A DNA stretch of 64,000 nucleotides from Mugil cephalus. Its lineage: Eukaryota; Chordata; Actinopteri; Mugiliformes; Mugilidae. The stretch covers positions 3,495,340 to 3,559,339 of the forward strand of contig NC_061776.1 in the NCBI RefSeq assembly GCF_022458985.1, in the 5' to 3' direction. The notes below the pieces were generated by a model, which saw only the letters and a list, made by a program, of their open reading frames with translations, made no database searches and was not told the origin of the DNA. A program made the translations under genes and the position numbers. Positions 24,583-53,147 of the stretch are shown piece by piece; the stretch's first letter is position 1, and the number at the start of each line of letters is the position of its first letter.

Positions 24583-25984
24583 TGTTTACTTATAACTGAA
24601 GACATAGTACGTCTTCCAGCTCGGTCCATACACTAGTGAAGTTAGAACAGCTGCATATAAATATAGATAAGACGTCCTCACCTCACTTACACACTGACGC
24701 TATTTACTCGAGACCCGGGCGCGCCACATTGCACGTAGCTTGAGTCGGAGTCTGCGCATACGGTCCAGAGGCTGGGCCACGATATCGATGCCCGCCCACA
24801 CTTCCTCCAGACTCCTCTTGGTTTCGTTCTGACTCTACATCCCACCACCAGCGAGAAGGACATGTTGGAACACACACGAAATATTTATTTATCAGTTATT
24901 TTACAACTCTCACAGACTGAACAGATTTTCATCGACAAATTTAAAATGATCTTTATTATATTGGTTTATGAATGTGATCCAGAGAAACACTTGACTTCAT
25001 GCTCAGTCAAAAAGTGAGGGAAGAGTTTAGAAGTTGAGATTATTTGAATGTATTTCAGTGACCCTCAGAGTTATTCCATCAGCTTCCTCGGTGTTGCTTT
25101 TGGGTGTAAGTGTCGAGTCAAATGTAAGACTGTGGGCGCTGAATGAGCCCCATAACAGATGTAAAGTGGGCTAAGTGGCTTAAGGCAAATACAGGCAAAT
25201 ATCAAGTTGCCCCATTTAAGACCAGTCTGACCCCCTTTGTGCCCAGTGAGCAAACAAATGATGCCAACACATGTCAGTGCAACTCAGCAAGTGGTTCTCA
25301 CCTGCAACCCGGTCATAACCCCCACATGAGGCCCATATGGGCAAACACAAGGTGGGTCCACCAAGGGAATCCGCATGGACAAACCACTTAGGACCCTTAT
25401 CTGCAGCCATATTTAACCATTATGGGACCAACATGGACATGCTTGGTCGGGACATATTTTACACCACTGTCCCTATGGATTGTATTATCACCTGTAAGAA
25501 TCCCCACATATCCACTACGACAGTTTAGCCAGAGTTAAAAACAAAAGCACAACCTGAAAGCTGGTAAAAAGACTATATTAAATCAAGCTCACACATTGTT
25601 ACAAGCACCAAACCCACAAGTTTGATGAAGCAGAGTCTGAAGGCACTTTGGATCTTTAAGTCACTTTCAAACCTCTCAACAAATTGTCTTTTTGTGGCGC
25701 TAGCATCGAGTCTCACAGCTGGTCGCCTTTTTGGTGTGTTCTCACCAGGTACTCTACTACTACCGGTATCGCCTCCGCTGGTCCAGTACATATAGTTTCA
25801 TTGGTGAATCCTAGCATTGAGCCTCACTGTGGTAGCCCTATACAACTGGAACCTGTGCCCTGGGATGTACCCCAACCTCTGCCGCAAGGGTGTGACGCCC
25901 AACTGGCCCCGGAGCGTGCACACGCGGCTAGCGCGCAGAGAGATAACTGGTGTGAGCGCGGAGATTTGAATGAGTGGAAAATAG

Positions 25985-27795: not shown

Positions 27796-29187
27796 TGGTT
27801 ACTATAACAGACGACATAATTGCGTAGCGAGTCCAGCTCGGTCCAAACTCTAGTGAAGTTAGAAGACAGCTGCATATAAATTTTATAGATAAACGTCCTC
27901 ACTCCGGTTTCACTTACACACTGACGCTATTACCAGGAGAACACGGGCGGTCGCCATCTTGCTCGGAGCATGGAGCGAGTCTGCGCAGTTCGGGTTCCGT
28001 GGGCGAAGACACGTTGATCGATCCCACCACACGATCCCCAGACATCGCTCTTGGTTCGTTCTGCTCTAAACTTCCACCACAGGTGAAAGAACATGTTGGA
28101 ACTTAACGGAATTTATTTTGTATTCATTTTAGTTATCAACCGCACAGACCAACAGATTCAGCCGACCAATTTAAAATGACTATATTTATTTTGGTTATGA
28201 ATGTGATCCAGAGAAACTCTTGACTTCATCTCAGGTCAAAAATATGGGAAAGTTAATGTTGAGATTTATTTGGATAGTTCATACTCAGATTATGTCATCC
28301 AGCTTCCTCTGTAGTAGCTTTTGGGTGCAAGTCGATTCAAATTTAAGACTGTGGCTGCAATGACCCCATAACAATGTAAGTGGGGGGAGTCTAAGCTGGG
28401 CCTTATGGTGCCTATACTAAAGGGGCAAATTTCAAGTTGGGCCCCTTTTGAAGGTCCAGTTCTGATCTCCCCCTTTGTGCCCATGTGACGAATATATGAG
28501 GCCCTACATGGGTCCTGTGCAACTCAGCAAGTGGGCCCCACTGAACTCCTTCAGACCCACTTGAGCCCATATGGGCAAACACAGATGGGCCACCAAGATA
28601 ACCGAGGACAAAACCCACTTTGGACCCTTAGCGCAGCCCATAATTAACCCTTATGGCCCCAACCTGGACATGCAGGCTGGGCAACTTTTCACCACTGTCC
28701 GATGTATGTAATTTTCCACCTGGTAAGATTCCCCCACATATCCACTACACAGTTTTAAGCACGTTAAAACAAAGAGGCACAACCTGGCGACCTGAAACAA
28801 GACATTATTTATCAAAGTGCGGAGCGCGCATGGTTTCAGCAGCAAACGCCACAAGTGTTGAAGCAGAGTCTGAAGGCCAACTTTGTATCATTAAGTTCTA
28901 ATTTCAACCTCATCAAAATTTGTCTTTTTGGCGGTTAGCATCCGAAGTCTCACAGCTGTCGCCTGTTTTTGTGGTGGGTTCTTCACCGACGTGCACTCCG
29001 TTTCCTCCCTGCCCCCCTTCCAAGTACATATAGGTGCGATAGGTATGTATCTACATTAGCCCTCTCTGTGGTAGGCCCTATACAGACTGGAGACCTGTCC
29101 AGGGTGGACCCCACCTCTGGCCCAATGACTCCAACCCCCACCCCCGTGACCCTCCAGAGGATAACGGTTACGAGACTTAATAATATT

Positions 29188-30882
<1,695 letters not shown>

Positions 30883-32293
30883 GTTACTATAACAGAAGAC
30901 ATAGTCGTCTTCCAGCGTCGGAGCGCACTCACGAGTGCTCGCTGAGAGTGCGAGCAGGCTGCATATAAATAAGGCGAAGACGCGAGCGCTCACACAGCCA
31001 GTCGCCGCCGAGTGAGCCTGCAGAGATTTACCCCCGAGACACGGTCAGGCGCCGAGTCATGCTCGGTAACAAGCCTTGAGTCGGAGTCTTAGCATTCGTC
31101 CGACGCGGAGCCACGATATCGAATGCGCGCCCCCACACTTCCTCCAGAACTCTCTCTTGGTTTCGTTCTGCTCAACTTCCACCGACCAGTTGATACGGAC
31201 ATGTTTGAACATAACACGAAATTTACGAAGAAGGTATTACATTTATTTACTCATCTCACGACAGGACAGATTTCATCGACAAAATTTAAAATGATCTTAT
31301 TATTTGGTTATGAATGGATCCAGAAAAAAAAAAAAAGAATCTTGAACTTCATCTCAGGTCAAAAACGAAGAGAAAGTTTGATATGACAGTTTAATTAGAG
31401 TGAATGATTTCAGTGACCTCAATTTAATCATCACTTCCTCGGTGTTGCTTTTGTGCAAAGTCGAACAAATTGAAGAGCGGGTCAGTCTAGTAATTAGCCC
31501 CTATAACAGATTTAGAGTGGCTAAGTGGGCTAGCCTATACAGTGGTGCAAAATTTATCAAGTTGGCCACATTTAAGGTCCATCTGATCCCACTTTGTCCC
31601 ATGTTAGCAAACATATGAGCCTACATGGGTCCCTGTGCAACTCAGCATTTGGCCCCACCTTAAACCCAGTCAGAAACCACCTTGTAGCCCATATGGCAAC
31701 ACAAGGTAAGACCCCCCATGGAGAACAGGCGAGACAAAACACTCTGTGATACCCTTATCTGCAGCCCCATATATAACCCTTATGGGACAACATGGACATC
31801 TGGCTGGCCGAAGAGAGTCCACCGACTGTCCATGGTTATGTATTTTCCACCTGTAGAGATTCCCCACATATCCACTACACAGTTTAGCAGAGTTAAAACA
31901 AGAAGCACAACCTGAACAGGAAAAAAAGACGCGTTAATTACATCAAGCTCACACAGTGTGAAAACCCAAACCCACAAGGTTGTTGAAGCAGAGTCTAGAA
32001 GGCACTTTTATCGAGAGTAATTCTACCTTCAAACCTCCAACAAATTTGTCTTTTTGGCAGCTAGCATCGATGTCTCACAGCTGACGCCTGTTTTTTGGGG
32101 TTCTCACCAGTACTCTGGTTTCCTCCCACTGTCCAAGTAAATATAGGTTCATGGTGATTCAATATTAGCCACTGTCTGTGGTTAGCCCTAACAGACTGAA
32201 CCTGTTACAGTGGACCCCACCTCGATGCCCAATGACATCTCGAGGCCCCCGTGACCTCCAAAGAATAACTGGGTTACTGAGAATAATGTATAT

Positions 32294-33814
32294 GCAGGAT
32301 GAAAACTTCTAACATGTTGAGTCTTCATGTGGCCGTCAAATGATATTATACCAAAACCTTTACCACACACTTTAAAAGAGGTATGGTTACTCCCCCCTGT
32401 GAGACACACCATTTGCGGTCAAATGGCTAACCCTGACTGAAACCTTTTCCCACATGTTCGTCAACGAGTAGTAAGCGGTCCTCTCATCTCACGCCTAGTG
32501 GATTTCTCATGTGATTTTCTAATTGTCGTCAAGGCCAGTATCTTTTCCCACACACTTTACAGAGGTAATGGGCTTCTTCACCCGTGTGAGACCTCATGTG
32601 CACGCGATAAAAAGTATTACAACTGAAAACCTTTAACCACACACTTTACAAGTTGGCTTCTCACCTGTGTGAATCCTCATTGGACTGATAAGGTAACTTC
32701 TCGAAACGCAAAACTTCCCACAGATTCACAGGAATTCAGATGCTACACCGTGAGGATTCACATTGACTGTCCAAGTAGGCGAGTCCTTCTGAAACTCTTC
32801 CACAATTTTCGTCTACAATAGGGCCTCTCACCTTGTAAATCAGCGATGCACATACCCTCAGTTTGAAATTAGATCCTTGACTAAAGATGAGAGTCTGCTC
32901 TCTCGCTGCAGAGTTGCCACGATGTTTTACAGACTTATTATCTGTCAGATTATCAATCGGACTCTCTACATTGGAGAGTTGTCTACATTTGCTGGTACAG
33001 GGTGTACTGTCTGCAAGCTTCTTCTCTTCTTGGATTCAGCTCGCATTCGAATTATCCCGTTCTACATACTTGATTCCTCCTGGATACTGGTCTCTCACTT
33101 TTGGTGGTGGTTCACTGACTTCACTTTCCTCTAATAGATAGTCTCTCATCAAGTAATCAGCCTCCAGCCTTCATACAAATTTCTTCCTCTGACTGCTGCA
33201 GGAATCACTTGTTCCTGTTTATCTCCCTGGCGGTTCTGTTCCCCTGTTTCCTGATTATCTGTGGAGGTTTCTGTTCCTCCTGCTCCTATTTATCCTTGAG
33301 GTCTGGTTCTGCTTGTCCCTCTTGAAGCTGTAGAGGTTCTGGTTCCTCCTGGTTCAGACTGGATGCCCTCCCTGCTTAAAAGCTGGTCAAGCTACAACGT
33401 CCTCCTCCGTAAAAACATAATGCTGTCTGGTCTGGAGACATAAAAATCAAAAATGGTGTCACAAAAGCATTGCAGTTGTATTTTGCTGTTACCAATATAC
33501 AACAAAATTGAGAAAACGTGTGGACGTTTGAAAAAAATACAAGACAAGAAATAAGCATGTTACAACCTCCTACCCGATCTCTTTTCCTCCTGTGTCTCTC
33601 CAAACGTGTTTTTCATTCATTATATTTTTTTAAACCTTCTACTTACCACCAGTCCGTGTAAACTTTACTCAGTTCCAGGTGATATCCAGCAGTCTGCGCA
33701 GACGAGCCCGATCTCTTCCTCTACGACACAGTGCTTTCAAAATCGTATAGTGCTTCAGCTGCAGCAGTTAGTCGCTCGATGATCAAAACTCTCTCAACTC
33801 TCAGATGAAGACAT
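32294..33814 (-). pseudogene. ZNF array unit 6 (indel-broken copy)
   Basis: N-terminal exon about 33814-33640; zinc-finger exon about 33430-32294. Finger order follows the RSRSHLN subtype of units 1-3. Many single-base losses; no finger is intact for more than about 20 residues. The 3' flank (about 31430-32293) is the short form. Confidence 0.68.
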
Positions 33815-35580
33815 TGTTAGCAATAACAAAGACATAGTCGTCCTTTCAGCTCGGTCCATACACTATGAAGTGAGAACAGCTCATATAAATATAGATAAGA
33901 CGCCCTCACCAAACACTTAACTTTACCCACTGACCTATTTACCCGAGACACGCGCCATCCTTTCTCGAGTTTAGAACCGATCTGGCCATACGGTCCAGGC
34001 GGGCCACATATCGATGCCCCGCCCACCACTTCCTCCAAACTCGCTCTTGTATCGATCTCTCTACTTCCACCACCATGGAGAAGACATTTAACATACACGA
34101 TTTATTTATTTATCATTTATTTATCACTAGACAGACCAGATTTCATCGACCAAATTTACAATGATCTTTACTATTATGTTTATGAATTGTGATCCGAAAA
34201 ACGCTTGACTTCATGCTCAGGTCAAAAACAAAGAAGAGTTTATGATGAATTTAATTTGAATGATTCATGACCCATAGTTCTTCATTGCAGCTTCCTCTGA
34301 GTTGCTTTTGGTGCAATCCGAGTCAAATTGTAAGACAGAGAAACACTGGTGTCATGTACTCTCTGTTAATATTTATTTTGTGTAAAAATACACTGATGAT
34401 AAAATTCATGGACAAACCGTAAAGTTTACACAATCTCAAAGATTATCATGAAATATTTTGTCTTTATAAAAGCACGCCTTCATAGATGGAACCAATATGA
34501 CCCGATACTGCCAAGTGTCGTTATGTATTTCTAAGAAAACCAAATCAATTTAAAGATATTAATGCTGTTTTAGCATTCTCTAGTATTTGTCTGCGGTCTA
34601 TACAGAAAGAAATTAACTTCCTACAGACTAATAATGATTCTTAATGTAATATTTCACAAATGCATGGGGCTCTGAAACACCCACCAGCTTTCCCATCTGG
34701 CCCACAAGGTTAAAATACGGCACAGATGGGCACAGAGTGCATGGTTTGACTGGTTAATTTTCATGGGTCCCATGTTTGAGGTGCCTGTGCCCCCACATGT
34801 GTGGGGCTGGCTGTATGAGCCCATAACAGAATGTCAGTGGGCTAAGTGCGTAGCATATACCAGGCAAATTCAAGTGGCCCTATGAAGGCCATCCTGTCCC
34901 CCTTTGTCCCATGTAAGCAAACATAATGAGGCCTACATGGTCCTGAGCAACTCACAAGTTGTCTCACCTAAACCCATCAGAACCCACTTCAGGCCTGTAT
35001 GCAAACACAGGTGGGCCACCATGAAACCGCAGACAAACACACATTGGGACCCTTATCTGCAGCCCATATTAACCCTTAATGGACCAACTGGACATCTGGC
35101 TGGCAATTTTCCCCCACTGTTCCATAGCAAATTTTCCAACCTGTAAAATTCTCCCACATATCCCTACACATTTAGCAGAGTTAAACCACAAGCACAAGCC
35201 TGAAACTGTAAAAAGGAACTTTATTATATCAGCTCCTCACACAGTGTTAACAAGCACAAACCCACAAGTTTTTGAAGCAGAGTCTGAAGCACATTGGTAT
35301 CTAAGTTCTACTACTTTCACCTCAACAAATTTGTCTTTTTGCGGCTAGCAACCGATGTCTCACAGCATTCCAGCCTGATTTTTGTGTGGTCTCACCATGT
35401 ACTCCTTCTGGTTTCCTCCCGCTGTTCCAAGTACATATAGTTCAATTGGTGATCTACAATAGCCTCTCTGGAGTAGCACTAGATTGACTGGAACCTGTCC
35501 ATGAACCCACCTCTGCCTCAATGACATCCCAACCCCCTTGACCCTCCAGAGGATACTTGATACAGAGAATGAATGAATAA

Positions 35581-37028
35581 TACAAGATGAAAACTTTTAC
35601 AAGGAATAGCTTCATGTGACTCGTCAAATGAGTATTACGAACAAAACGCATACCACAAAAACACATTACAGAGTACGGTTTCCTCCCCTGTGTGACTCAT
35701 CATGTGTGCGTTCAAATGGCTAACCCTGAATGAAACTTATTATCCCACATGTCCTCGCAACAGTAATGCCTCTCACCCAGTGATTCTCATTGTTTTGTAA
35801 ATTGACGACAAGGCCGAGTATCTTTTTCACCACACACTTACAGAGGTAAGCTTCTCACCCGTGTTTATCCTCTCAGTGCACGATAAATAGCATTACTACT
35901 GAAAACTTTACCACACACATTTACAGAGAGTGGCATCTCACCTGTGTGAATCCTCAATGTGGATTTAAGGTGACTTCTCCGAACGGAAACCCACCCACAA
36001 TGTCACAGTAATAACAGATGCTCACCGTGTGATTCACCATTCCTACAGTCCCATACCTTCTGAAACTCTTCCCCACCTTTCACAACGATATGCCTCTCAC
36101 CTGTGAGAAATCTGCTCGATCACCCTCATCTTGAAATATCTTGAGGTTTTTCACAGATGTCACAGTACAGACTTTTATCTTTCATATCACTCTGGACTCG
36201 CCTACATGAGAGTGCTAACATGCTGTGTCTTGTCCTCTCAATGGCTTCTTCCTCTTCTTTGATTCAGCTTCGCATCCTACATGATCCCGAGCCCACATAC
36301 TCATTCCACCCTGATCTGGCTCTCACTTGTGTTGTGATCACTGAGCTCACTTCCTCATCAGTACAAGTCTCCAACAAGGAAATCAGCCTCCCACTTCAAA
36401 CAAGATTTCTTCCTCTGACTGCCAGAAGTCCTCCTGTTCCTTTTTATCCTGAGGCTCTGGTTTTCCTTCCTGATTCCTGATTTATCTGTGGAGTCAGGTT
36501 CCTCCTCTCCTGATTTATCTGGAGTTCTGTCCTCTTTCCCCTTTAAGCTGTAAGTTCTGGTTCCTCCCTGTTCAGACTGGAGGCCCTCGCCTCTTAGAAA
36601 AAGCTTGGTCATCACACTTCCTCCTCCGGACTACTTAATGCTGTCTGTCTAGGGAACTTAAAAATAATTAAATGGTGTCACAAAACATTTCATTGTATTT
36701 GTCGTTTACCATATACACAAATATGAGGAAACGTGACATTTGAAAAATTTCAAACAAGAGAGAAGCCCGTTTAGCATCCGTTCTACCATCTCTTTCCTCT
36801 GTTCCGTCTCCAAACCTGTGTGTTTCCATTCATGTATTAGTTGTAACCGTTCCTACCTGTACTCACCTATTCTGAAACTTTATCACAGTTTCCGTGTGAT
36901 CATCCACAGTCTGCGCTGAACGATCGATCTCTTCCTCGTACTTGACAGAACTTTCAAAAGTCCCTAATATTTCTTCACACAGCAGTTATCCTTCGATATC
37001 AACTCTCTCAAACTCTCAATGAAGACAT
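35581..37028 (-). pseudogene. ZNF array unit 7 (indel-broken copy, long 3' flank)
   Basis: N-terminal exon about 37028-36872; zinc-finger exon about 36650-35581. The 3' flank (about 34330-35580) is the long form shared with units 1 and 12, including the degraded CACTGAGTGGG minisatellite site near 34.72 kb. Base losses are heavy and mostly of G on the + strand. Confidence 0.68.
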
Positions 37029-38251
37029 TTTTTACTATAACAGAAAAAAAAGACAAATTATCCGTCGTCCACTCGTCCATAACACTTTGTAGTGAACAGC
37101 TGCAGATAAATATACGATAAACTTCCTCACTCACTTACACAGCAACCTATTTACCCGAGACACGCGCCCCGCCCCCCGCCATCCTGCTCGAGTTTAATCC
37201 GATCTGCGCAGTACTCGAGCGGGGCCACGATAATACGATGCCCCGCCCACACTTCCTCCCATATCGGTCTTGGTTTTCGTTCTCTCTACTTACCCAACCA
37301 GAAAACCATGTTGGAACATACACGGAATTTATTGATTTATTCATTTATTTTATCAACTCTCACAATCAGACAATTTCCATCGACAAAATTTAAATAACCC
37401 TTATTATATGGTTAGAATGTGAACCAGCAGAATCTCTTACCTTCATGCACATCAAAAATAAGAAGATTTAATGATGACATTTAATTGAAAGATTTCATTG
37501 ACCTCAATTATTCATCAGCTTCCCGGTTTTCTTTTGGGTCAAGTCCGATTCAATGTAAAACTGGCTAGCTTAGACCCCATAACAATGTAATGCTAAGTGG
37601 CTTAGGTCATACAGGGCACATTTCAAGTTGCCCCATTGAAATCCTGTCGACCCCCTTTTATTTCCATGTACATACATATGACCAACATTCCTGTCAACTC
37701 ACAATTGCCCCAGCAGAAACCCAGTCAAAACCCACTGAGCCCTTTCAAACACAAATGGGCCACCATTGAAACCGCAGACAAACCACTGGACCCTATCTCA
37801 CCCATATTTAAATCCCTTGGGCACCAACATGACATGCTCTGCCAATTTCCACCACTTCCAGTGATTATTTTCCACCTAAATTCCCCTCATGAAACACTAC
37901 ACAATTTTACCTAGTTTAAAACAAAACACAATCGAAACTTAAAAAAACTTATTAAACACTCACAATTTACAACACAAACCACAATTGTAAGCAGAGTCTA
38001 ACCCTTTGTTCGTTAAGTTCTACTTTCACACCTCAACAAATTTGTCCTTTGCGCTAGCATCGATTGTCTCACTCTTCGCCTGTTTTGTTTTCTCACCAGT
38101 ACACCGTTCCCTCCCCTTCCAAGTACATATAGTTCTTTTGATTGCTACCAAACCCTCTGTGGTAGCCCTAATAACTTGACTGCCATACACCACCTCTGCC
38201 CAATACTCCAACCCCCTGTGACCCTCCATATAACTTTACAAAATAATAATA

Positions 38252-39701
38252 TTCAGATAAAACTTCGTAACATTATAGCTTCATTGGTCATCACTGATAT
38301 TACACCAAAACATTTACCACACACTTTACAGATACTCCCCTGTACTCTCATTGGTCGTTCACTGATTATAACGAACCAAAACCTTTACCAAACACACTTT
38401 ACAGAGTACGTTTCTCTCCCCTGAGTGATCATCATGTGTGCGTCAAACAGCTACCCTACCTAAACTTTCCCACCATGCTCCAACAGTACCCTCTCACACC
38501 ATGATTCTCAAGTATTTGTAATTACGACAAACCGATATCTTTTCCCACACACTTTCAGAGGTATCATCTCACGCCGTTAACCTCATTGCACTTAATTTAA
38601 CATTACTACTAGAAACCTTTACCACACCTTACAGAGGTGTGCTCTCACCTGTTGAATCCTCATGTGATAATGACTCTCGAACGCAAACCCTTCCCACAAT
38701 TCACAGGAAATACAGAGCTCAGACGGTGTGGATTCTCATTCCTGACAAGTACCAACCTTCTATACTCTTCCCCACTTTTTCACAACCACGATCCTCTCAC
38801 CTTTGAAAATCTCGATCACACTCATTAATATCTTAATTTTCCACAATTCACAGGTTTCAACATTTTACGTGGTCAGTATCACTCTGTCTCTCTGACATGG
38901 AATTGTCCCTAACATTGCTGACTTTTCTCTCTGCAATGTCTTCTTCTCTTCGCGTCTTTAGATTCAGCTCTCATTTCTAGTGAGCCCGTTCTACATACTT
39001 GATTCCTCCCTGATCGGGCTCTCACATTTTGTGTGTCACGAGCTCACTTCTCATAATAGAAGTCTCCATCAAGGGAATCACAGCCTCCACTCAAACAAAT
39101 TTCTCCGCTACTCGCAAAATTCCACCTTTACTCTTTTATCCCTGAGTTCTGTTCCTCCTTTCCTGTTTTTATATCCCTAGGTTTCTGGTTCCCCTGTTCC
39201 TATTTATCTGGGAGTCTTTCTGCTTGTCCTCTTTAAGCTGTAAGTTCTTTCCTCCGTCGACTACCCCCTCATCGGAAACTGGTCACTACAAACTCCTCCT
39301 CCCTTACAAACAAATCTGTGCTTTGTCTGAGACATAAAAAATAATAAATTTCACAAAAGCATTCATTAATTTTGTCATTTACATATACACAAATAGGGAA
39401 AACGTGTGGACGTTTGAAGAAAATCAAGACAAGATAATGAACCATTTACACCTTCTACCGAGTCTCTTTCTCTTTGATCTTCTCCAAACTAGTTTTTCAT
39501 TCATTATTTTATTTTTAAAAAACCGTTCTAACCTGTACTCACCTATGCTGTGTACTTTATCCAGTGTACGGTGATATCCCAGCAGTCTCGCTGACGATCG
39601 ATCTCTTCCTCAAACTGGACACATTCTTTCAAAAATTCCAATATTGCTTACCGCCAGCATTATCGCTCGATGATCAACTCTCGTCAAACCTCCTAATAAA
39701 C
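38252..39701 (-). pseudogene. ZNF array unit 8 (indel-broken, shortened copy)
   Basis: N-terminal exon about 39701-39545; zinc-finger exon about 39330-38252. This is one of the most eroded units. Its period (about 2.68 kb) is some 300 bases shorter than most neighbours, explained by many small losses rather than one large deletion. Confidence 0.66.
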
Positions 39702-40900
39702 TTTTTACTCATAACAAAACATAGCGTCTTCCACGCTCCAGACACTTATAATTAGACGCTGCATATAAATAAATAAACGCCTCACTCCACTTACACAACT
39801 GACCTAAGTTACCCCAGACACGCTGCGCCATCTGTTGCTCGGACTTGAGTCGAAGTCCTGCGCAGTACTTCCGGAGCAGCCCACATATCGATGGCCCCCC
39901 CCACACATCACCAGACTCCTTCTTGTTCTTCTCTCTACGTCCAACCACCACGAGAATGACATGTTGGAACATACCACATTATTTAGATATTCATTTATTT
40001 ACAACTCTCAAAACAACAGAATCATTCGACAAAAATAAAATACGTATTATTTTTAGAATATCCAAGAACCTTGACTTCATGCTCATCAATATAAAAAAAG
40101 TTAAATTTAATTTAACTTGAATATTCATGACCACAAGTTGTATTGATCACTTCCTCGTGTGTTGCTTTTTGTGCAAGTCGATCAATTAAGACTGGGCTGC
40201 TTAAGACCCCATAACAGATGTAATGCAAGTCTTACTAACACAATTTCAATTGCCCCATAATCCTCTGATCCCCCTTTGTCCATTGTCTAACATATGACCT
40301 ACATTCATCAACGCAGCAAGTGGCCCACACCTGAAACCCCTCAAACCCTCTTACCCATATGCAAACACAGAAACCCCCCATGAAACAGCAAACCAACACT
40401 TGGATCCCCTTTCTCACCCATATTTAACCCTTATGGACCACATGCCATCGCTGCAATTCCACCACTGTCCATTATTATTTCCACCGGAAGACCCCTCAAT
40501 CCACTACCTTGTACCAATTAAAAAAAAGCACAAACCTGAAACAGAAAAAAAGACTTTATTAAATCAAGCTCTCACAGTGTTAACAAGCACAAACCCACAA
40601 GGGTTTTTGGTTTGTTGGAAAGCAGAGTCTGAAGGCACTTTTACTTTAAGTTCTACTTTCAACCTCAACAAATTTGCTTTTTGGCGGCTAGCATCGATGT
40701 CTCACAGCTGTCGCCTTTTTATTGTTGTTCTCACAGGTACCCTTTCCTGCCTCCCCTCCAAGAATATAGTTCATTTTGAATTCTACAGAGCCTCTCTGTT
40801 AAGACCCGAATAACTAACCTTCCAAACCCCACCTCCCCAATGACTCCACCCCCCGGTGAAACCCTCCAGAGATAAACTGGTTACAGAGCATAATGATATT

Positions 40901-42394
40901 TCAAGATTAAAACTTTCTTACATTGATGAGTCTTCATTCCTCAAATGGAGTATTACAACCAAAACTTTACCACACACTTTAACAATACGTTCTCCGTGGA
41001 CTCATCATGTGGGTCGTCAGCTGATTATTACGACCAAAACCTTTACCACACACTTTACAGAGGTACGGTTTCTCCCCTGATACCATCCTTGCGGTTCAAT
41101 CTACCCTGACTGAAACTTTCCACATGTCCTCGCAACAGTAACGCGCCTCTCACCAATGAGTCTCATGTATTTCTAATACGACAACCGAGTTTCCTTTTCC
41201 CACACACTTTACAGATATGCTTCTCACCCGTGTGATCCCCATTGCTCATTAAATTACAATTACACTAAACCTTACACACACTTTAAATTGGCTTCTCACC
41301 TTTAACCTCAATTGAGTTTAGGGTACGTCCTCGCGAAACTCAAACCCTCCCACACTTCACAGGAATACAAATCTCACTCTTGATCTCAATGTCCATGACA
41401 ATTAACACCATCCTTCTAACTCTTCCCTCATGTTTTCCACAACGATATGCCTCTCACCTTGTAATCTCATGCAACCCCTCATTTGAATTAGTCTTGAATT
41501 TTTTCCACAATGTCACATTACAGACTTTTATCGTGCTATCACTCTGACTCTCTACATGAAGTTGTCTACATGCGGACTTTTTCTCTGCACCTTCTTCCTC
41601 CTTCGTTGATTCACTCTGCATTTCTAGTTATCCCGATCCACATACTTGATTCCTCCCTCTCTGGCTCTCCCTTTCGGTTGTGGTTCAACTTCTCACTTAT
41701 TCCGCTAAGTAAAAGTCCCTCCATCAAGGAATCACCTCGCAGCCAAACAAGAGGTCTTTCCTGCTACGCAGCAGGGAATTCCTCCTGTTCCGTTTTATCC
41801 CTGGACGGCTCTGGTCTCCTCCTGTTCCTGATTTATCGGTTGGAGGTTCTGGATTTTCCTCCTGCTCCTGATTTCTATCTGTGGAGTCTTTCCTCTTGTC
41901 CCTCCTTTCAGCTGTAAGGTTCTGTTCCTCCTTTTCAGACTGACCCACTCCTGCTTAGAAAGCAGGTCATCTACAACTTCCTCCGCCTCCTCCGTAACAA
42001 ACATAATCTGTGGCGGTCTGTAGAGACATACATAAAATAAATGTGCACAAAAGCATTTCATAGTATTTTGTCTTTTACCAAAAACACTATATAGGAAAAC
42101 GTTGGGACTTTGAAGAAAATTCCAAACAAAGATAACATGTTACAACCTTCCTAGCCATCCTTTCCGCGTTCTTCTCCAACTTGTGTTTCCATTCATTATT
42201 AGTTTTTTAAAACCGTTCTATTCTAAAACCTTACTCACCTAATCCGTGGAACTTTATCCAGTTTCCAGATATCCCATCTCCTGACTATCGATCTCTTCCC
42301 TACTGGATGACGTCTTCAAAGATCCAATATTTCTTCAGCACACATTTATCCCTCGAATATCAACTCACTCACAACCACCCCTCAGAAAAGACAT
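40901..42394 (-). pseudogene. ZNF array unit 9 (indel-broken, shortened copy)
   Basis: N-terminal exon about 42394-42240; zinc-finger exon about 42020-40901. Near 40.95-41.07 kb the finger region appears to carry a partial duplication of the CACACACTTTACAG module. The 3' flank with the SINE-like block is at about 40140-40900. Confidence 0.66.
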
Positions 42395-43647
42395 TGTGAC
42401 ATATACAAAGACATAATGCGTCTTCCACTCGGTCCAAACACAATGAATTAACGCGCGCCAAATAAATCATAATAAACTCCTCACTCACCTACATACTGAC
42501 CATTAACCAGACACAGCCCGGCGCCCCTATTCTCGAACTTGAATGTCGAGTCTGCATATCGTCCAGCACCACGATAGCGTCCCCGCCCACACACCACCAA
42601 CTCTCTCTTGGGTTTCGTTCTGCTCTTCTTCCCCACCACCAGTGGATAAGGACATTGGAACATACACAATTTATTCATTTATTTATCAACCGCACAACAA
42701 CAGATTCATCACAAAATTTAAAATGACCTTTATTTCATTTGGTTATGAGGTATCCAGAAAAACCTTAATGCATCTCATCAAAACCTAAAGAAGATTTTAT
42801 GAGAATTTAATTTTGAATGATTTTCAGTGACCTCAGAGTTATTCATCACTCCTCGTGAGTGCTTTTGGTCAATCATCAAATTAAGACTGTGCTGGCTGTA
42901 TGACCTCCAATAACAATGTAAGTGCTAAGGGGCTTACATATGCTGCAAATTCAATTTGCCCCATTGAAGGTCCATCTGATCCCCCTTTTGTCCCTGTGAG
43001 CAAAACAATGAGGCCTACATGGGTTCCTGTCCACTCCACAAGTTTTCTCACCTGACAACCCCGTCAGAACCCACTTTACCCTATATGGGGCAAACACAGT
43101 GGCCAACAACCATGGAAACCGCAGACAAACCCACTTGGGACCCTTATCTGCAGCCCATATTTAACTTATGACCAAACCCTGACCTGCGGCTGGCAAATTT
43201 CCACCACTGATCCATATGATGTATTTTCCACCTTATATTCCCACATAACCACAACACAGTTAGCTGAGTTAAAACAACACAACAAAAGCACAACCCTACA
43301 CTTAAAAAAACTTTATTAAATCAACTCACACAGTGTTAAAGCTGCAAACCCACAAGGATGTTTGAGCAATCTTAGGCACTTTGTATCTTAAGTTCTACTT
43401 CAACCTCAACAAAATTTGTCTTTTGCGGCTACATCCATGTCTCACAACTGTCTCCTGTTGTTGTGTGGGGTTCTCACCAGTACTCTGTTTCCCCTCCCAC
43501 TTCCAAGTACATATTTGCAGTGGTATGCTACATAAACTCTCTGTGGTTAGCCCTAGATAACTGAGACTGTCCAGTGGAACCCCACCTCTCCCAATACTCC
43601 AACCCCCCGTACCCCCCATAGATAACTGTTACAGAAATAAGGAATAT

Positions 43648-45779
43648 TTCAAAGAAAACTTCTTAAATATAGTCCTTCATTACTATCGCACCTGATTAAT
43701 TAGACCAAAACCTTTACCACACACTTTACAATATGCGGGTGTCTCCACTTTGGATTCATCATGTTGCTTCAAACAGCTACCACCCTAATGAAACTTTCCA
43801 CATTCTAGCAACAGTAAGCCTCTCACCCGAGTGGATTCTCAATGTGATTTTCTATTGACACAAGCCGATACTTTTTCCCCACACACTTACAGATATGCTT
43901 CTCACCTCCGTGTGAGCCTCATTGCTCGATTAAAGTACATTTATACGATACCTTTACCACACACTTTACAAGTTGGCTTCTCACCTAATCCTCAGTGAGG
44001 TAATGACTTTCCAACCAAACCCTTCCCACCAGAATCACAAAATACAATTCTCATCCTGGTGGATTTCATTGCCTGACAATTACAAGTCTTCTAAACTCTT
44101 CCCACACGTCTGCAAAATATGCCTCTCACCTGTAAAGCTCGATCACCCCCTCATTTAAATTAGTATCTTGAAGGTTTTCCACAGATACACATTTACAACT
44201 ATTATCTGTGTCATTCACTCTACCTCTGACATGAGAGTTTCTACGCTGTTCTTTTGCTCTGCAACGATCTTCTCTCTTCTTTGTCACTGCTGCATTTCCT
44301 ATTATCCCGATCCACATACCAACTTCCTCCCACTGGCTCTCACGTTTTGTTTGTTCACTAACTCACTTTCCTCATTAGTAGAAACCCAAGCAAAGAATCA
44401 GCCTCCACTCAAACTTATGTGCTTCCTGCTTACTCTGCAAGAATTCCTCCTTCCTTTATCCCTGAGTTCGGTTCCTCCTGATCCTCTTTATCAGTGGAGG
44501 ATCTGGTTCCTCTTGTTCCTCTTTAAGCTGTAAGTTCGGGTCCTCCTGTTCAGACTAGCCCTCTCCTCTTAGAAAGCTGTCATCTACAACTTTCCCTCCG
44601 CCTTACAAACAAATCTGATCGCTGGAAACATTAAAATAAAAATATGTCACAAAAGCATGCATTGTATTTGTTCTTTTACCAATATACACAAATAAGGAGA
44701 AACGTGGACTTTGAAGCCCATTCAAAACATCAAAACAAAGTAGTACTCATTTATTAAAATAAGCACTTTACTTATCCGAAAACAAAGCAAATGAAACAAT
44801 CAAGTAATCTGCATATTATAAATGAATTATGCCTCTGACAACAATATATAAAACCAAATGACAAATAGTGTTGCATATAAGAACAAATCACAGCACTTTT
44901 GTTTTTTGGTGGTTTTTGCTTTATTCTGATAGTTTACGGAGGCAAAAGAGAAGAGACGAGCTGAAAAAGACCCAATGTAAAGCTGAAACCATGAAGATGG
45001 AACAAGACAACAAACGCAAAAGACAAAATCTAACCGAAGGATGTAGTCCAATTACCCCATGTATACATGACGACCACGGATTAATAACTCTGAAACCGAC
45101 ATTTGGCAAACTACAACACACTGACACCTGTATTTCTCCAACACCCTCCTCTCTCCAAACCACTGTTTCTACATCTTCTTCTACTCTTAAGGTTACACGC
45201 CGGTTTTCCATCACCTAATCTTCTAAAGCAATCCCAAGATTTATATGACCTCAATCTCTGTCATTCCCAACAGTGTTCAGACGATCCAACCACTCTTATA
45301 CTCTTTTATGTCACTTCAAAATGAACCTATGAAGCAAGCTATGACATGACAAAATAAACTTCCTTAAATCGTTGGCGTTTAAAACTTTTATATCTGACAT
45401 TACTATACACTTTACTATATGTTACAACAGCACATGGGAAAAATAATGACATTTCTTAAATGTTCAATCTATAATGAATAATATACAACTTTATTTACCT
45501 ATCAGTGAGCTTTTCTGTAATCTCCTAGACTACACCTTCATGTCAACTGGCCACTCTTTCCCCTTCTTCCTCCAAACTTGGTTTCCATTCATTAGTTTAT
45601 TTTTGTAAAACCGTTCTACTTACTCACCTATTCTTTAACTTTATCTCAGTTTCCATGATATCCACATACTCCTGAACATCGTTCTCTTCTCTACTGACGA
45701 CATTCCTTTCAAAGAGTCCCGAATATTCTTCAACACACATTATCGCTCGATATCAACCTCTCAAACTCCAATAAGACAT
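43648..45779 (-). pseudogene. ZNF array unit 10 (indel-broken copy with long intron block)
   Basis: Zinc-finger exon about 44620-43648; N-terminal exon about 45779-45626. Between them, 44740-45530 matches the block that separates the two N-terminal exons of the gene at 50.6-53.1 kb. The internal N-terminal exon copy itself is missing here: the CATTCAAAACATCAAAACAAAG junction skips it. Finger words (TTCCAAC...CCCTTCCC) are of the 50.6-kb gene subtype, so unit 10 looks like a relative of that gene. Confidence 0.7.
44740..45530. repeat. Intronic block shared with 52.0-52.9 kb
   Basis: Shares ordered words with 52010-52860, such as AATCTGCATATTATA, ACAATATATAAAACCA, AGAACAAATCACAGC and ACACCCTCCTCTCTCCAAACCACTG. 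It occurs only in unit 10 and the 50.6-kb gene. Confidence 0.75.
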
Positions 45780-47026
45780 TTTACTAATACAGAAGACATA
45801 ACTCTCCACTCGTCCATACACTAGTAAAGTTAGAAACAGCTGCATATAAATAATACGTTAAACTCCTCACAACCACTTACACCTGACGCTTATTTACCCG
45901 GAGACACGCGCGCGCCATCTTGCTGGCTTAGATCCGGAGTCTGCGCAAATACGTCCGACCCCCGATATCGATGCCCGCCCAACTTCCTCCAACTTCGCTC
46001 TTGGTTTTCGTTCTCTCTACTTCCACCACCAGGAGAAACATGTTGGAACATACACGAATTTATTTTATTATTCATTTATTTATCACTCTCACAACAGAGC
46101 AGGAATTCATCGACCAATTTAAATATCTTATGAGTTTATAATGTGTCCAGAAAACTCTTGAATTCATCTCAGTCAAAAACTTAGAGAAGATTTAATGTGA
46201 ATTTAATTTGATATTTCAGTGACCTACAAAAGTTATTCATCAGCTTCCTCGTGTGTTGCTTTTGGTGCAAGTCGATCAAATTAAACTGTGGCTCTGTATG
46301 AGCCACTTAACAATGTAAGTGGCTTAATGCTTATCTATACACAAATTTCAAGTTGGCCCCATATAATCCATCTGACCCCTTGAGCCATGTAGCAAACAGA
46401 TGAGGCCTACATTCCTTCAACTCCACAAATTGGCCACCAGCTGAACCCTCCAAACCCACTTGAGCCCATATGCAAACACAGGGCGGGCCACCCTGGAAAA
46501 CCGCAACAAACCCACATGGGACCCTTATCTCACCCATATTTAACCCATATGGACCAACATGACATGCTGGCCTGGCAATTTTCCACACTGTCCATGTATT
46601 TTTTCCACCGTAAATTCCCCACACATATCAACAACAACACACCATTTTTAGCAATTAAAAACAAAACACAACCTGAAACTGGTAAAAAACCTTTATGCAA
46701 ATCAAGCTTCACACAGTTTACAACACAAACCCACAAGTTTAACAGATCTAATACTTGTATCTTTAAGTACTACTACTTTCACCTCAACCAAATTTTCTTT
46801 TTGAGCGGCTACATCGATGTCTCATCTCACAGCTGTCGCCTGTTTATGTGGTTTCTCACCAGTACCCGTTTCCTCCCCTTCCAATACATATAGTTCATTG
46901 TTATTCTACTTAGCCTCTCTTGTACCCTAAAAGAACTGAACCCTGTCCATGGGACCCCACCTCTGCCCAATGTACTCCAAACCCCCCTACCCACCAGAGA
47001 TAACTTTCAGAAATTAATGATTAATT

Positions 47027-48737
47027 TCAGATGAAACTTCGTACATTATGATCTTCATTGGTCTCACGACGTATTAAACGACCAAAACCATTACCACACC
47101 ACTTGACCAGAGGTACGGTTCTCCCACTGTTTGAGTCATCATGTTGCGTCAAATGCTATACCCCGCATGAAACATTTACACATGTTCTCGCAACATACGG
47201 CCTCTCACCCGAGGGATTCTCATGTGAATTGTAATGGACAGACAAGGCCGATACTTTTCCCACACACTTTACAAGTTATGCGTCCTCACACCGGAGTCTC
47301 ATGTGGCTCAATAAATTAGCAATACTAACACTGAAATATAACCACATACTTTACAGAGGTGTGGCTTCTCACCCGTGTGAATCCTCATGTGGACGTTAAG
47401 GTGACATTTCCAACGGAAACCCCTCCCACAGGTGTCACAGATATACAGATGCTCACCGGCGTGGATTCTCTTGTGGGCTGATAAGTTCTCAGCACTGCTG
47501 AAACTCTTCCCACATGTTTTGCAACAATATGGCCTCTCACCTGTGTGAGTCCTCATGTGGGCATTAAGGTGACTTCTCCAACTGAAGTCTTTCCCACAGA
47601 TGTCACAAGAATACAGATGTTCGACGGTGTGGATTCTCTTGTGGGCTGATAAGTTATCGGACCTTCTGAAACTCTTCCCACAAGTTTCGCAACAATATGG
47701 CCTCTCACCTGTGTGAAATCTGCGATGCACCCTCATCTTGAAATTAGTCTTGAAGGTTTTTCCACAGATGTCACATGTTACAGACTTTTTATCTGTGTCA
47801 GTATCACTCTGACTCTCTGACATGGGAGAGTTGTCTACATTGCTGTGACTTGTGTCTCTGCAACGTCTTCTTCTCTTCTTTGGATTCAGCTCTGCATTTC
47901 TAGTTGATCCCGAGTCCACATACTCGATTCCTCCCTGATCTGGGCTCTCACTTTTTGGTTGTGGTTCACTGAGCTCACTTTCCTCATCAGTAGAAGTCTC
48001 CATCAAGGAATCAGCCTCCAGCTTCAGAACAAGATGTTCTTCCTGCTGACTGCTGCAGGAGAATTCCTCCTGTTCCTGTTTTATCCCTGGAGGTTCTGGT
48101 TCCTCCTGTTCCTGTTTTATCCCTGGAGGTTCTGGTTCCTCCTGTTCCTGATTTATCTGTGGAGGTTCTGGTTCCTCCTGCTCCTGATTTATCTGTGGAG
48201 GTTCTGGTTCTGCTTGTCCCTCTTTAAGCTGTAGAGGTTCTGGTTCCTCCTGGTTCAGACTGGAGGCCCTCTCCTGCTTAGAAAGCTGGTCATCTACAAC
48301 TTCCTCCTCCTTACAAACATAATGCTGTGGCTGGTCTGGAGGGACATAAAAATAATAAATGGTGTCACAAAAGCAGTTGCATTGTATTTTGTCTTTTACC
48401 AATATACACAAATATGGAGGAAACGTGTGGACGTTTGAAGAAAATTCAAGACAAGAGATGAAGCATGTTAGCAACCTTCTAGCCGAGTCTCTTTCCTCTG
48501 TGTCTTCTCCAAACTGTGTGTTTTCATTCATTAGTTAGTTTTTAAACCGTTCTACCTGTACTCACCTATTCTGTGTAACTTTATCTCAGGTTTCCAGGTG
48601 ATATCCAGCAGTCTGCGCTGACGATCGATCTCTTCCTCGTACTGGACGACAGTTCTTTCAAAGAGTCCGAATATTTCTTCAGCAGCAGCAGTTAGTCGCT
48701 CGATGATCAACTCTCTCAAACTCTCAGATGAAGACAT
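47027..48737 (-). CDS. C2H2 zinc-finger protein, array unit 11 (5' clean, 3' in noisy sequence)
   Basis: N-terminal exon 48737-48566 (ATG to phase-1 GTGAGT donor) encodes 57 residues of the SSSESLRELI domain. The zinc-finger exon starts at 48335 after CCCTCCAG. It is clean to about 47345: acidic region with five EPEP-type modules (LKEG, INQE twice, IKQE twice), LKLEAD, basic KKRRRRCR, then five fingers with contacts TFKV, RDNA, WSHA, SENA and WCHV. In the sixth finger the frame breaks at about 47340, exactly where sequence quality drops. Finger words continue to the expected stop position near 47027, so the real protein probably has two to four more fingers. Expected to be a nuclear DNA-binding regulator. 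Confidence 0.85.
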
Positions 48738-49020
48738 TGTTACTATAACAGAAGACATAGTCGTCTTCCAGCTCGGTCCATACACTAGTGAAGTTAGACA
48801 GCTGCATATAAATATAGATAAGACGTCCTCACTCACTTACACACTGACGCTATTTACCCGGAGACACGGGCGGCGCCATCTTGCTCGGAGCTTGGAGTCG
48901 GAGTCTGCGCAGTACGGTCCGAGGGCGGAGCCACGATATCGATGCCCCGCCCACACTTCCTCCAGACTCGCTCTTGGTTTCGTTCTGCTCTACTTCCACC
49001 ACCAGTGAGAAGGACATGTT
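48738..49020 (-). promoter_or_regulatory. Array-type promoter: YY1-like and GC-box motifs
   Basis: Upstream of the unit 11 start codon, the word GCCATCTTG at 48875-48883 (CAAGATGGC in gene direction) matches the YY1 core. GGGCGGAGCC near 48922 and CCCCGCCCA near 48944 are GC boxes. The same order is seen, degraded, in the other array units (for example 27.95 and 45.91 kb). No TATA box at a sensible place. Confidence 0.55.
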
Positions 49021-49289
49021 GGAACATACACGGAATTTATTTATTTATTCATTTATTTATCAACTCTCACAGACAGACAGATTTCATCGACCAAATTTAA
49101 AATGATCTTTATTATTTGGTTATGAATGTGATCCAGAGAAACTCTTGACTTCATGCTCAGGTCAAAAACTAAGGGAAGAGTTTAATGATGAGATTTAATT
49201 TGAATGATTTCAGTGACCTCAGAGTTATTCATCAGCTTCCTCGTGTGTTGCTTTTGGGTGCAAGTCGAGTCAAATTTAAGACTGAGAAA

Positions 49290-50230
49290 CACTGGTGTCA
49301 TGTACGTCTCTGTTATGTATTTATTTTGTTAATAAATACAATGATGGAAAAAAGTTCATGGACACCATTAAAGTTTTACACAATCTCAAAGATTATCATG
49401 AAATATTTGTGTCTTTTTATGAAAAGCACGGCCTTCATTAGTGGGGAACCAAGATGACCCGATACTGAAAATGTCTTATGTATTTCTATGAAACCAATCA
49501 ATTTTAAGATATTTAATGGCTGTTTTAGCATTTCTCTAGTATTTTGTCTGCGACTATACTGAAAGAAATGACACTTCCTACAGATCTAAGAATGATTCTT
49601 AATGTAATATTTCACGAATGCATGGGGGCTCTGAAAACACCCAGCCAGCTTGTCCATCTGGGGCCCACAAGGGTTAAATACGGGGCACTGAGTGGGCACT
49701 GAGTGGGCACTGAGTGGGCACTGAGTGGGCATGGGTTTGAACTGGGTAAATTTTGCAGGTCCCATGTGGTTTGAGGTGCATGTGCCCCACATGTGTGGGC
49801 TGGCTGTATGAGCCCCATAACAGATGTAAGTGGGCTAAGTGGGCTTAGGCATATACAGGGCAAATTTCAAGTTGGGCCCCATTGAAGGTCCAGTCTGATC
49901 CCCCTTTGTGCCCATGTGAGCAAACATATGAGGCCTACATGGGTCCTGTGCAACTCAGCAAGTTGGGCCCCAGCTGAAACCCAGTCAGAACCCACTTGAG
50001 GCCCGTATGGGCAAACACAGATGGGGCCACCATGGAAACCGCAGACAAACCCACTTGGGACCCTTATCTGCAGCCCATATTTAACCCTTATGGGACCAAC
50101 ATGGACATGCTGGCTGGGCAATTTTCCACCACTGTCCATGTGATGTATTTTCCACCTGTAAGATTCCCCACATATCCACTACACAGTTTAGCAGAGTTAA
50201 AACAAAAGCACAACCTGAAACTGGTAAAAA
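49290..50230. repeat. Long-form 3' flank of the array unit
   Basis: Clean version of the flank found at 15.66-16.5 and 34.33-35.2 kb. The first about 500 bases (AGCACGGCCTTCATTAG to the minisatellite) are absent from the other units. The remainder (ATATACAGGGCAAATTTCAAGTTG and onward) is present in all. No coding capacity seen. Confidence 0.75.
49686..49729. repeat. 11-bp minisatellite, four copies
   Basis: CACTGAGTGGG repeated four times without mismatch. The degraded equivalent lies near 15.95 kb. Confidence 0.95.
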
Positions 50231-50234
50231 AGAC

Positions 50235-50240
50235 TTTATT
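50235..50240 (-). terminator. Poly(A) signal of the 50.6-kb ZNF gene
   Basis: TTTATT on the + strand, AATAAA in gene direction, about 356 bases after the stop codon. The same GACTTTATTAAATC context recurs in the array units. Confidence 0.6.
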
Positions 50241-50369
50241 AAATCAAGCTCACACAGTGTTACAAGCAGCAAACCCACAAGGTTGTTGAAGCAGAGTCTG
50301 AAGGCACTTTGTATCTTTAAGTTCTACTTTCAACCTCAACAAATTTGTCTTTTTGGCGGCTAGCATCGA

Positions 50370-50595
50370 TGTCTCACAGCTGTCGCCTGTTTTTGTGTGG
50401 GTTCTCACCAGGTACTCTGGTTTCCTCCCACTGTCCAAGTACATATAGGTTCATTGGTGATTCTACATTAGCCTCTCTGTGGTAGCCCTAGACAGACTGG
50501 AGACCTGTCCAGGGTGGACCCCACCTCTGGCCCAATGACTCCAACCCCCTGTGACCCTCCAGAGGATAACTGGTTACAGAGAATGAATGAATATT
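50370..50595 (+). repeat. SINE-like repeat in ZNF 3' UTR
   Basis: Contains the fish repeat words GGGTTCTCACCAGGTACTCTGG, CCTCTCTGTGGTAGCCCTAGA, GACCTGTCCAGGGTGGACCCC and GAGGATAACTGGTTACAGA, ending in GAATGAATGAATA. It runs opposite to the gene and its 3' tail touches the ZNF stop codon. Copies occupy the same place in the array units and in the 56.6-kb gene. Confidence 0.7.
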
Positions 50596-53147
50596 TCAGG
50601 ATGAAAACTTCTTACATGTATGAGTCTTCATGTGACTCGTCAAATGAGTATTACGACCAAAACCTTTACCACACACTTTACAGAGGTACGGTTTCTCCCC
50701 TGTGTGAGTCATCATGTGTGCGGTCAAATGGCTACCCTGACTGAAACTTTTCCCACATGTCTCGCAACAGTACGGCCTCTCACCCGAGTGGATTCTCATG
50801 TGATTTCTAATTGACGACAAGGCCGAGTATCTTTTCCCACACACTTTACAGAGGTATGGCTTCTCACCCGTGTGAGTCCTCATGTGGGCATTAAGGTGAC
50901 TTTTCCAACGGAAACCCTTCCCACAGATGTCACAGAAATACAGATGCTCACCGGTGTGGATTCTCATGTGGACTGACAAGTTATCAGTCCTTCTGAAACT
51001 CTTCCCACATGTTTCGCAACAATATGGCCTCTCACCTGTGTGAGATCTGCGATGCACCCTCATGTTGAAATTGGTCTTGAAGGTTTTTCCACAGATGTCA
51101 CATGTTACAGACTTTTTATCTGTGTCAGTATCACTCTGACTCTCTGACATGGGAGAGTTGTCTACATTGTTACTGTGACTTGTGTCTCTGCAATGTCTTC
51201 TTCTCTTCTTTGGATTCAGCTCTGCATTTCTAGTTGATCCTGAGTCCACATACTCGATTCCTCCCTGATCTGGGCTCTCACTTTTTGGTTGTGGTTCACT
51301 GAGCTCACTTTCCTCATCAGTACAAGTCTCCATCAAGGAATCAGCCTCCAGCTTCAATACAAGATGTTCTTCCGGCTGACTGCTGCAGGAGAATTCCTCC
51401 TGTTCCTGTTTTATCCCTGGAGGTTCTGGTTCCTCCTGTTCCTCTTTAAGCTGTAGAGGTTCTGGTTCCTCCTGGTTCAGACTGGAGGCCCTCTCCTGCT
51501 TAGAAAGCTGGTCATCTACAACTTCCTCCTCCTCCTCCTTACAAACATAATGCTGTGGCTGGTCTGGAGAGATGTAAAAATAATAAATGGTGTCACAAAA
51601 GCAGTTGCATTGTATTTTGTCTTTTACCAATATACACAAATATGGAGGAAACGTGTGGACGTTTGAAGAAAATTCAAGACAAGGAAGAAACACTTCTTGC
51701 TGAGTCTCTTTCCTCCATGTCTTCTCCAAACTGTGTGTTTCCATTCATTAGTTAGTTTTTAAACCAGTCTACTTGTTCTTACCTATTCTGTGTAACTTTA
51801 TCTCAGGTTTCCAGGTGATATCCAGCAGTCTGCGCTGACGATCGATCTCTTCTTCGTACTGGACGAAAGTTCTTTCAAAGAGTCCGAATATTTCCTCTCG
51901 AGCAGCAGCCATCAATCGCTCGGTGATCAAATCTCTCAAGCTCCCAACTGTTTGTCAGCCAAAAATTCAAGAGAAAAATCAAGACAAGAACATGAGGACT
52001 GATCAGAAACATCAGAAACAAAGCATTGACTCATTTATTTAAATAAGCATTTTACTTTTGCAAATGAAACACTCAATCAAGTAATCTGCATATTATAGAA
52101 TGAAGTTTTGCTCTGATCAACAATATATAAAACCAATGACAAATAGTGTTGGCATATAAGAACAAATCACAGCGACTGTTGTGTTTTTTGTGGGGTTGGT
52201 TGGCTTGGTAGTTCTGATAGTGACAGATGGCGAAAGAGAGAAGAGACAGCTGGAAAAAGACCAATGGTGAAAGCTGAACAGTGGAAGATGGAGACAGAGG
52301 AGCAACAGGACGTCAAAAGACAACATCTACCGAAGGATGAAGTCCAAAGTACGCGCCATGGTGATACAGGACAGACCACGGATTAATTAACTCTGAAACA
52401 GCGGCATTGGCAAACAACAGACACACTGACACCTGGTAGTGTTTCCAACACCCTCCTCTCTCCAAACCACTGGTTTCACATCTTCTTCTACTCTTAATGG
52501 TTCCACTGCTCGGTTTCCACACCGTATCGGTTCTAAAGCATATCCAATAGGATTTATACTGGACTCATGATCTCTTTCCATTCCCAACAGTGTTCAGACG
52601 GATCCAACCAACTCTGTGATATATTCTTTTATGTCACTTCAAAATGGAGACTCATTGGAAGGCAAGCTAGGTGGACATGAGCAAAAATAAACTTCTTAAA
52701 TCTTTGCTTTTAGCAACTTTTTGATATCAGACTTTACTATAACTTTACTATATGTACACACACAGGAAAAAGTAATAACATTTTCTAAATGTTTGCAAGT
52801 CTGATAAGTGAAGTAATAGTTAGCAACTTAGTATGTTAGCCTGAGTGCAGTGAGCTTTCTGTTAGCTCCTAGCTACACCTCATGTCAGACAGGCCAGTGT
52901 CTTTCCTCCGTGTCTTCTCCAAACTGTGTGTTTCCATTCATTAGTTAGTTTTTAAACCGTTCTACCTGTACTCACCTATTCTGTGTAACTTTATCTCAGG
53001 TTTCCAGGTGATATCCAGCAGTCTGCGCTGACGATCGATCTCTTCCTCGTACTGGACGACAGTTCTTTCAAAGAGTCCGAATATTTCTTCAGCAGCAGCA
53101 GTTAGTCGCTCGATGATCAACTCTCTCAAACTCTCAGATGAAGACAT
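50596..53147 (-). CDS. C2H2 zinc-finger protein with duplicated N-terminal domain (6 fingers)
   Basis: Three exons: 53147-52976 (ATG, 57 codons plus one base), 51947-51783 (165 nt, phase 1-1) and 51563-50596 (TGA). Joined they give 434 residues with no stop. Exon 1 encodes SSSESLRELIIERL through WKPEIKLHRI. Exon 2 encodes a second copy (SLRDLITERLMAAAREE...LHRI) after the acceptor GACAAACAG. Exon 3 encodes DQPQHYVCKEEE, an acidic stretch with LKEE, IKQE and LKLE motifs, a basic KKRRRH patch and six fingers with contacts TFNV, RDNV, WSHA, ASSN, QSHA and RTHS. It ends KKFSS at the edge of a SINE-like repeat. Exon 2 could be skipped in frame. Probable nuclear transcriptional regulator. Confidence 0.82.
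51783..51947 (-). other. Internal second copy of the N-terminal domain exon
   Basis: 165 nt, GTAAG donor and TTTTTCTCTTGAATTTTTGG...ACAG acceptor. It lacks an in-frame ATG at the domain start (an in-frame TGA lies upstream of the acceptor), so it cannot serve as a normal first exon for the full domain. Both ends are phase 1. Confidence 0.75.
51990..52900. other. Intron block between the two N-terminal exons
   Basis: Homologous to 44740-45530. A + strand stretch near 52270-52390 reads as charged, helix-like sequence (KAEQWKMETEEQQ, about 40 codons to TAA), but the unit 10 copy is not kept in the same frame throughout and no start or splice context is clear. I cannot name it. Confidence 0.45.

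Follow-up and report, generated by a model that had tools for sequence, protein, structure and literature searches.

The window, by which we mean the whole analysed stretch of 64,000 nucleotides (C7:3495340-3559339 of a 634.8-Mb Mugil cephalus genome in 24 contigs), contains a tandem array of C2H2 zinc-finger genes on the minus strand. The Pfam families zf-C2H2 and zf-H2C2_2 were found in three of the four translated stretches given, and the fourth, a first-exon stretch of 59 codons, was assigned to no family. A run of exactly 500 N is located at 547-1046; it is probably a scaffold join of fixed size and points to a scaffolded assembly. A second zinc-finger cluster lies on the same chromosome (C7:2462000-2636000), and one 10-kb sample of it showed frames without stops that encode 8 and 11 fingers, and a GC skew of at most 0.157.

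The unit at 47341..50672 (minus strand), which consists of a zinc-finger exon, a hinge, an intron, a first exon and a flank, was taken as the clean reference and used from 47345. The first-pass annotation had described the sequence from 47345 upward as nearly error-free and in frame for 1 kb, and this was borne out by a minus-strand frame without a stop for 398 codons (47341-48534), encoding five C2H2 fingers. The sister exons at 50.6, 56.7 and 60.4 kb are also open, being stop-free for 382, 393 and 344 codons, respectively. Two comparisons between clean sisters, counted in the same way as the units below, gave 0.8% deletions, 0.8% insertions and 1.9% substitutions over 861 columns, and 2.1, 2.8 and 6.1% over 1099 columns; longer indels are not the majority among those of the clean units.

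The clean units also differ in structure. The acidic hinge of the zinc-finger exon (48064-48252) is a 36-base tandem repeat with 5.2 copies in the reference unit; the clean units at 51.4, 57.5 and 61.2 kb have 2.2, 4.3 and 2.4 copies, respectively. Within the window, a 510-base segment of the reference unit (49285-49793) has matches only in the unit at 32.6 kb and, for the part from 49392 onward, at 15.65 kb; the array units therefore vary structurally among themselves. At 49640-50118 lies a repeat, about 480 bases long and bounded by inverted ends of 45 bases, that has matches at many genomic places (2173 candidates, of which 40 were scored). By its sequence it looks like a miniature inverted-repeat transposable element, and its right part is present in array units.

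Adjoining the reference unit is a 31.7-kb zone of raw-read quality (15651..47340, plus strand), which differs from the clean unit by 13-19% and is marked by the dropout of G. It holds ten tandem units (17378..47689 from anchor to anchor, minus strand) whose frames are broken by indels, with anchors at 17378, 20613, 23562, 26743, 29915, 32813, 36083, 38782, 41440 and about 44115, as well as a partial unit at 15.65-17.4 kb. The last stretch of the tenth unit extends beyond the right edge and is clean from 47341 on. An abrupt change of quality within a zinc-finger exon at about 47340, with frequent indels from there down to about 15.7 kb, had been noted before; both limits are now fixed, at 47340/47341 on the right, inside one zinc-finger exon, and at 15651/15662 on the left. 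Compared with the sister unit at 26.4 kb, the last errors before the right edge are one absent base and one substitution at about 47338-47340, and the following 118 bases (47341-47458) are identical to 26388-26505. The left edge is marked by a dispersed genomic repeat (15243..15651, unstranded), the last 200 bases of which are clean. Candidate places for this repeat run into the thousands across the genome (3768 at first look, 40 scored); nine copies were fetched and eight aligned (L037 was omitted), and comparison with these eight showed, over about 200 bases of the repeat, which ends at about 15651, no one-base indel private to the window's copy and one 3-base difference. Array sequence follows directly, with the first indel at about 15662; thus, the zone begins where homology to the array units begins. 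Its start lies within about 12 bases of the start of that homology, and its end falls inside the last near-identical unit.

Within these limits, indel positions number 115-218 per unit segment of 1.6-2.3 kb, or one per 8-16 bases across the ten units. Indel events amounted to 54-117 per kb in 14 aligned segments of the zone, compared with 0-25 in six clean segments at 50.7-61.9 kb and 29 in one at 13.9 kb. As had been proposed, all ten units are affected together with their flanks, exon and remainder alike, and so is the partial unit. The view that the errors continue throughout holds for the zone as a whole and fails at five clean islands, described below. For the base-specific analysis, 27305 of 28569 aligned cells from eleven unit segments were kept, and the 1264 dropped cells were deletion runs of more than 5 bases and columns in which the majority of the other units depart from the clean unit. 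The kept cells underlie the zonal rates, the comparison of exon and remainder, the shared deletions and the step models. Insertions longer than 4 bases or common to more than 3 other units were left out of the counts, and the zonal insertion rate omits 44500-45500, where one unit has extra sequence.

Deletion in the zone was specific for one base on one strand and was unequal along its length. In the lower part (15651..29500, plus strand), G was deleted at 8.4% (182/2154) and C at 1.6% (47/2853), with insertions, deletions and substitutions at 5.49, 3.87 and 4.01% of 11358 cells. In the middle part (29500..36000, plus strand), the deletion of G rose to 18.1% (202/1116) and that of C was 1.8% (25/1415), and the three overall rates were 5.17, 6.44 and 4.76%. 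The upper part (36000..47340, plus strand) had lost 36.8% of its G (726/1975) and 2.5% of its C (64/2530), with overall rates of 3.23, 11.17 and 4.21% and a GC skew of -0.352. From the lower to the upper part, deletion of A was 1.9, 2.4 and 3.9%, and that of T was 4.5, 6.2 and 7.9%. The total difference from the clean unit was 13.4% in the lower part and 19% in the upper part, and some of it is, judging from the clean sisters, real divergence. The pattern expected of raw CLR reads, an error of 10-15% with more insertions than deletions, is present at 15.65-29.5 kb and absent above, where the loss of G dominates.

Single and paired G were lost alike in the 44-kb unit (75/208, 36%, versus 31/96, 32%). 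No consistent rise of G or T deletion with run length was found in the units, in which runs of at least three G contribute only 18-21 G per unit and their loss scatters from 5 to 50%; homopolymer compression was rejected for lack of such a rise. Among the upper four units, a G before another G was missing in 214/396 cases and a G after another G in 135/472, an asymmetry taken as gap placement inside runs. The loss of G was 33.3% in the exon versus 37.9% in the remainder of the unit (including the small first exon) in the upper four units, and 11.4 versus 11.7% in the lower six. Editing from G to A or C to T and RIP-like mutation were also rejected, since deletions dominate and substituted G is replaced by each of A, C and T (2.6, 1.7 and 3.3% in the upper four units). 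The inserted base equalled its neighbour, a candidate PacBio sign, in a fraction of 0.35-0.68 of insertions across the ten units. Along the zone, the loss of G was 13-16% between 15 and 17 kb and 4-12% between 17 and 30 kb; it reached 25% at 30 kb, fell back to 11% at 31 kb, and was 12-23% from there to 36 kb and 31-45% above. A model with two steps (29.5 and 36 kb; BIC 4944) was closely followed by a cubic curve (4950), and a smooth linear rise fitted worse (4992). The insertion rate shifts elsewhere, at about 33 kb.

The loss of G is also visible, with no base alignment needed, in base composition and unit spacing. GC skew was between -0.24 and -0.40 in six consecutive 2-kb windows, whereas all 100 control windows of 2 kb, from 20 places on 20 other chromosomes, stayed within 0.171. 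The two 10-kb flanks of the window and the sample of the second cluster stayed within 0.157, and two of these three controls contained stop-free finger frames of at least 150 codons. Anchors are 2.9-3.3 kb apart below 36 kb and 2.6-2.7 kb apart from 36 to 44 kb, the region of highest G loss; both the shorter period and the skew arise because G is lost. Part of the spread in spacing is real, as the 510-base segment is present in one full unit and the last unit has extra sequence. This tenth unit carries several hundred extra bases between intron and first exon (44730-45550), of which 44893-45031 matches 52179-52328 at 79%.

The clean islands sit in the lower half of the zone. The largest (17105..17458, minus strand) is nearly clean over about 350 bases and holds three intact C2H2 fingers. 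The second (20387..20514, minus strand) aligns without gaps to 26.35-26.47 kb, and the third (22156..22364, unstranded) contains 87 and 115 bases identical to 49189-49275 and 49794-49908. The fourth (26318..26505, minus strand) has two intact fingers and includes the 118 bases shared with the reference unit, and the fifth (29430..29544, minus strand) has one intact finger. Several islands are letter-identical to clean units over 60-118 bases. They may have arisen from local polishing by short reads of sister units; recent identity of the units would also explain them.

That the zone is an artefact and not pseudogene decay, as the first-pass annotation had argued, is strongly supported by the error spectrum and the edges. 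If the ten units were genuine pseudogenes, decayed before or after their duplication, short frames would be expected, and the longest stop-free minus-strand frames in their 1.35-kb exon zone are indeed only 51-154 codons long. In addition, 14 exon runs are deleted in most of the ten units compared with the clean unit (9 in the lower six), so individual units may be truly broken too, and some of these shared deletions may be real or due to alignment. However, decay should show no bias towards one base or strand and no edge within an exon, and the zone contradicts both expectations: the loss is dominated by one base on one strand, and the edges fall inside an exon and at the array border. Indels every 8-16 bases in exon and remainder alike and the open sister exons at 50.6, 56.7 and 60.4 kb also argue against decay, which we consider very improbable. 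Among the kept columns, counted after those deleted in most units had been dropped, deletions occur almost independently from unit to unit, as expected of errors, with some shared excess: 15 of 465 G columns were deleted in four of four upper units versus 6.6 expected by independence, and 16 A or C columns were deleted in at least two of the lower six units versus 5.6 expected. An in vivo, strand-biased mutational process removing single G residues would account for the G- and strand-specific loss, which is real in the letters, but the zone edge lies inside an exon, and insertions and substitutions in the lower part are also at the level of raw reads. We know of no process that deletes a third of one strand's G in successive gene copies, and we give such a process a negligible chance. 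No biological mechanism is at stake here.

What kind of sequencing product the zone represents was judged from the error level and from the strand asymmetry. The first-pass annotation had favoured an unpolished long-read consensus. A consensus of several long reads, left unpolished because short reads could not be placed, would fit the clean islands as possible local correction, and the steps at 29.5 and 36 kb could reflect a change of read depth. Unpolished PacBio CLR assemblies reached Q30-35 in the portion available of a vertebrate benchmark (PMC8081667), and the difference of 13-19% here stands against that figure, which is genome-wide; a consensus built from only two or three reads could fall below it. 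The level in the zone is that of a single raw subread. Furthermore, reads of both strands should cancel an asymmetry in which up to 37% of G and 2.5% of C are deleted; here it is uncancelled, which means that reads of the opposite strand contributed little. The consensus is therefore less well supported and, in our judgement, quite improbable. A raw nanopore read would agree with the excess of deletions over insertions above 29.5 kb, and homopolymer indels are no sign of nanopore alone in the accessible part of PMC5553090. On the other hand, insertions outnumber the other errors in the lower part, which matches PacBio subreads but neither ONT 1D nor ONT 2D reads (PMC5553090, as far as available), and the homopolymer deletion excess reported for nanopore in the part of PMC4719071 at hand has no consistent counterpart here, where G runs of at least three are few. 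Nanopore thus appears unlikely, if slightly less so than the consensus. PacBio is the probable platform as judged by our analysis of the error profile. The run-length result alone does not point to PacBio, since 46% of subread indels were in homopolymers in the available part of PMC5553090.

Considering all the above results, we hold with high confidence that 15651-47340 is a raw read of whatever platform. The fuller reading is in our opinion likely; in it, the zone amounts essentially to a single raw long read from one pass over one strand, with PacBio CLR as the most likely source, in which G detection failed and which bridges the near-identical array. The four bases have separate dye signals, and 31.7 kb is a feasible length of one CLR read. 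We propose that a long read was placed into the assembly to bridge the near-identical zinc-finger array and that, as the molecule was read, the G signal would have been detected ever less often, G calls being dropped and the other bases being called roughly as usual. The likely cause, optical or chemical, would be failing detection of the G-labelled nucleotide during reading. The array would then have been left uncorrected since other reads could not be placed, short islands excepted; it is plausible that short reads could not be placed in the array, and the islands suggest some local correction. The data are compatible with either a single 31.7-kb read whose signal changed or two or three same-strand reads joined together, and the uneven loss of G, the steps at 29.5 and 36 kb and the shift of insertions at about 33 kb could mean joined reads or changing depth.

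For annotation, ten zinc-finger copies could be called pseudogenes, missed or given false introns, and unit lengths and divergence measured across the zone would also be wrong. A majority consensus built from the ten units, with the clean copy left out, contained no open frame, and the consensus of the whole-unit alignment (2852 bases) was too short to use. The earlier warning against pseudogene annotation thus stands in that pseudogene calls are unsafe here, and it cannot be extended to intact genes, as intactness is not recoverable from the zone; the safe statement is that the zone carries little information on gene integrity and that neither dead nor intact genes follow from it. Base- and strand-specific loss could serve as a cheap, read-free marker of such patches in other genomes. 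On balance, we favour the view that a chromosome-scale assembly has preserved one long read in which the detection of G failed stepwise and that its strand-asymmetric GC skew, down to -0.40 in 2-kb windows, flags the patch without reads. Should this hold more widely, scans of public assemblies for abrupt changes in skew that neither replication nor gene strand accounts for would expose raw-read patches and also false pseudogenes in tandem gene arrays.

No description of a G-only dropout of this size was found in the literature searched, including the available parts of PMC5553090 and PMC4719071, and no direct match in that on unpolished arrays. The closest likeness in error profile is to PacBio CLR subreads, for which insertions, deletions and substitutions of 5.92, 3.01 and 5.27% (14.2% in total) were reported, compared with 2.93, 7.52 and 9.74% for ONT 1D reads (PMC5553090, Table 1). 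The lower part of the zone is alike, at about 13-14% in total and with insertions first, then substitutions and deletions. In contrast, G deletions here reach 37% on one strand, and no such bias is described for the subreads in the portion of that study available (PMC5553090). The accessible part of PMC4719071 describes PacBio errors as random, with indels about 15 times as frequent as substitutions in early chemistries, and the zone is unlike this profile in both randomness and the ratio of indels to substitutions. With respect to the assembly, the TLK1 gene of Anna's hummingbird resembles the present case in that frameshifts were left unpolished in a CLR assembly, there because a twin sequence drew the polishing reads away, as far as the available part of PMC8081667 goes. 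It differs in that consensus errors and an allelic twin were involved there, whereas raw-read error over a 31.7-kb tandem array is found here. The same source mentions, in the text available, a one-read setting for gap closing, apparently of PBJelly (PMC8081667). Single-read gap closing of this kind would likewise leave clean contig ends joined by a raw read across a repeat, and by such a gap-bridging route, with the tool here being conjectural, the zone in the Mugil cephalus array might have been formed.
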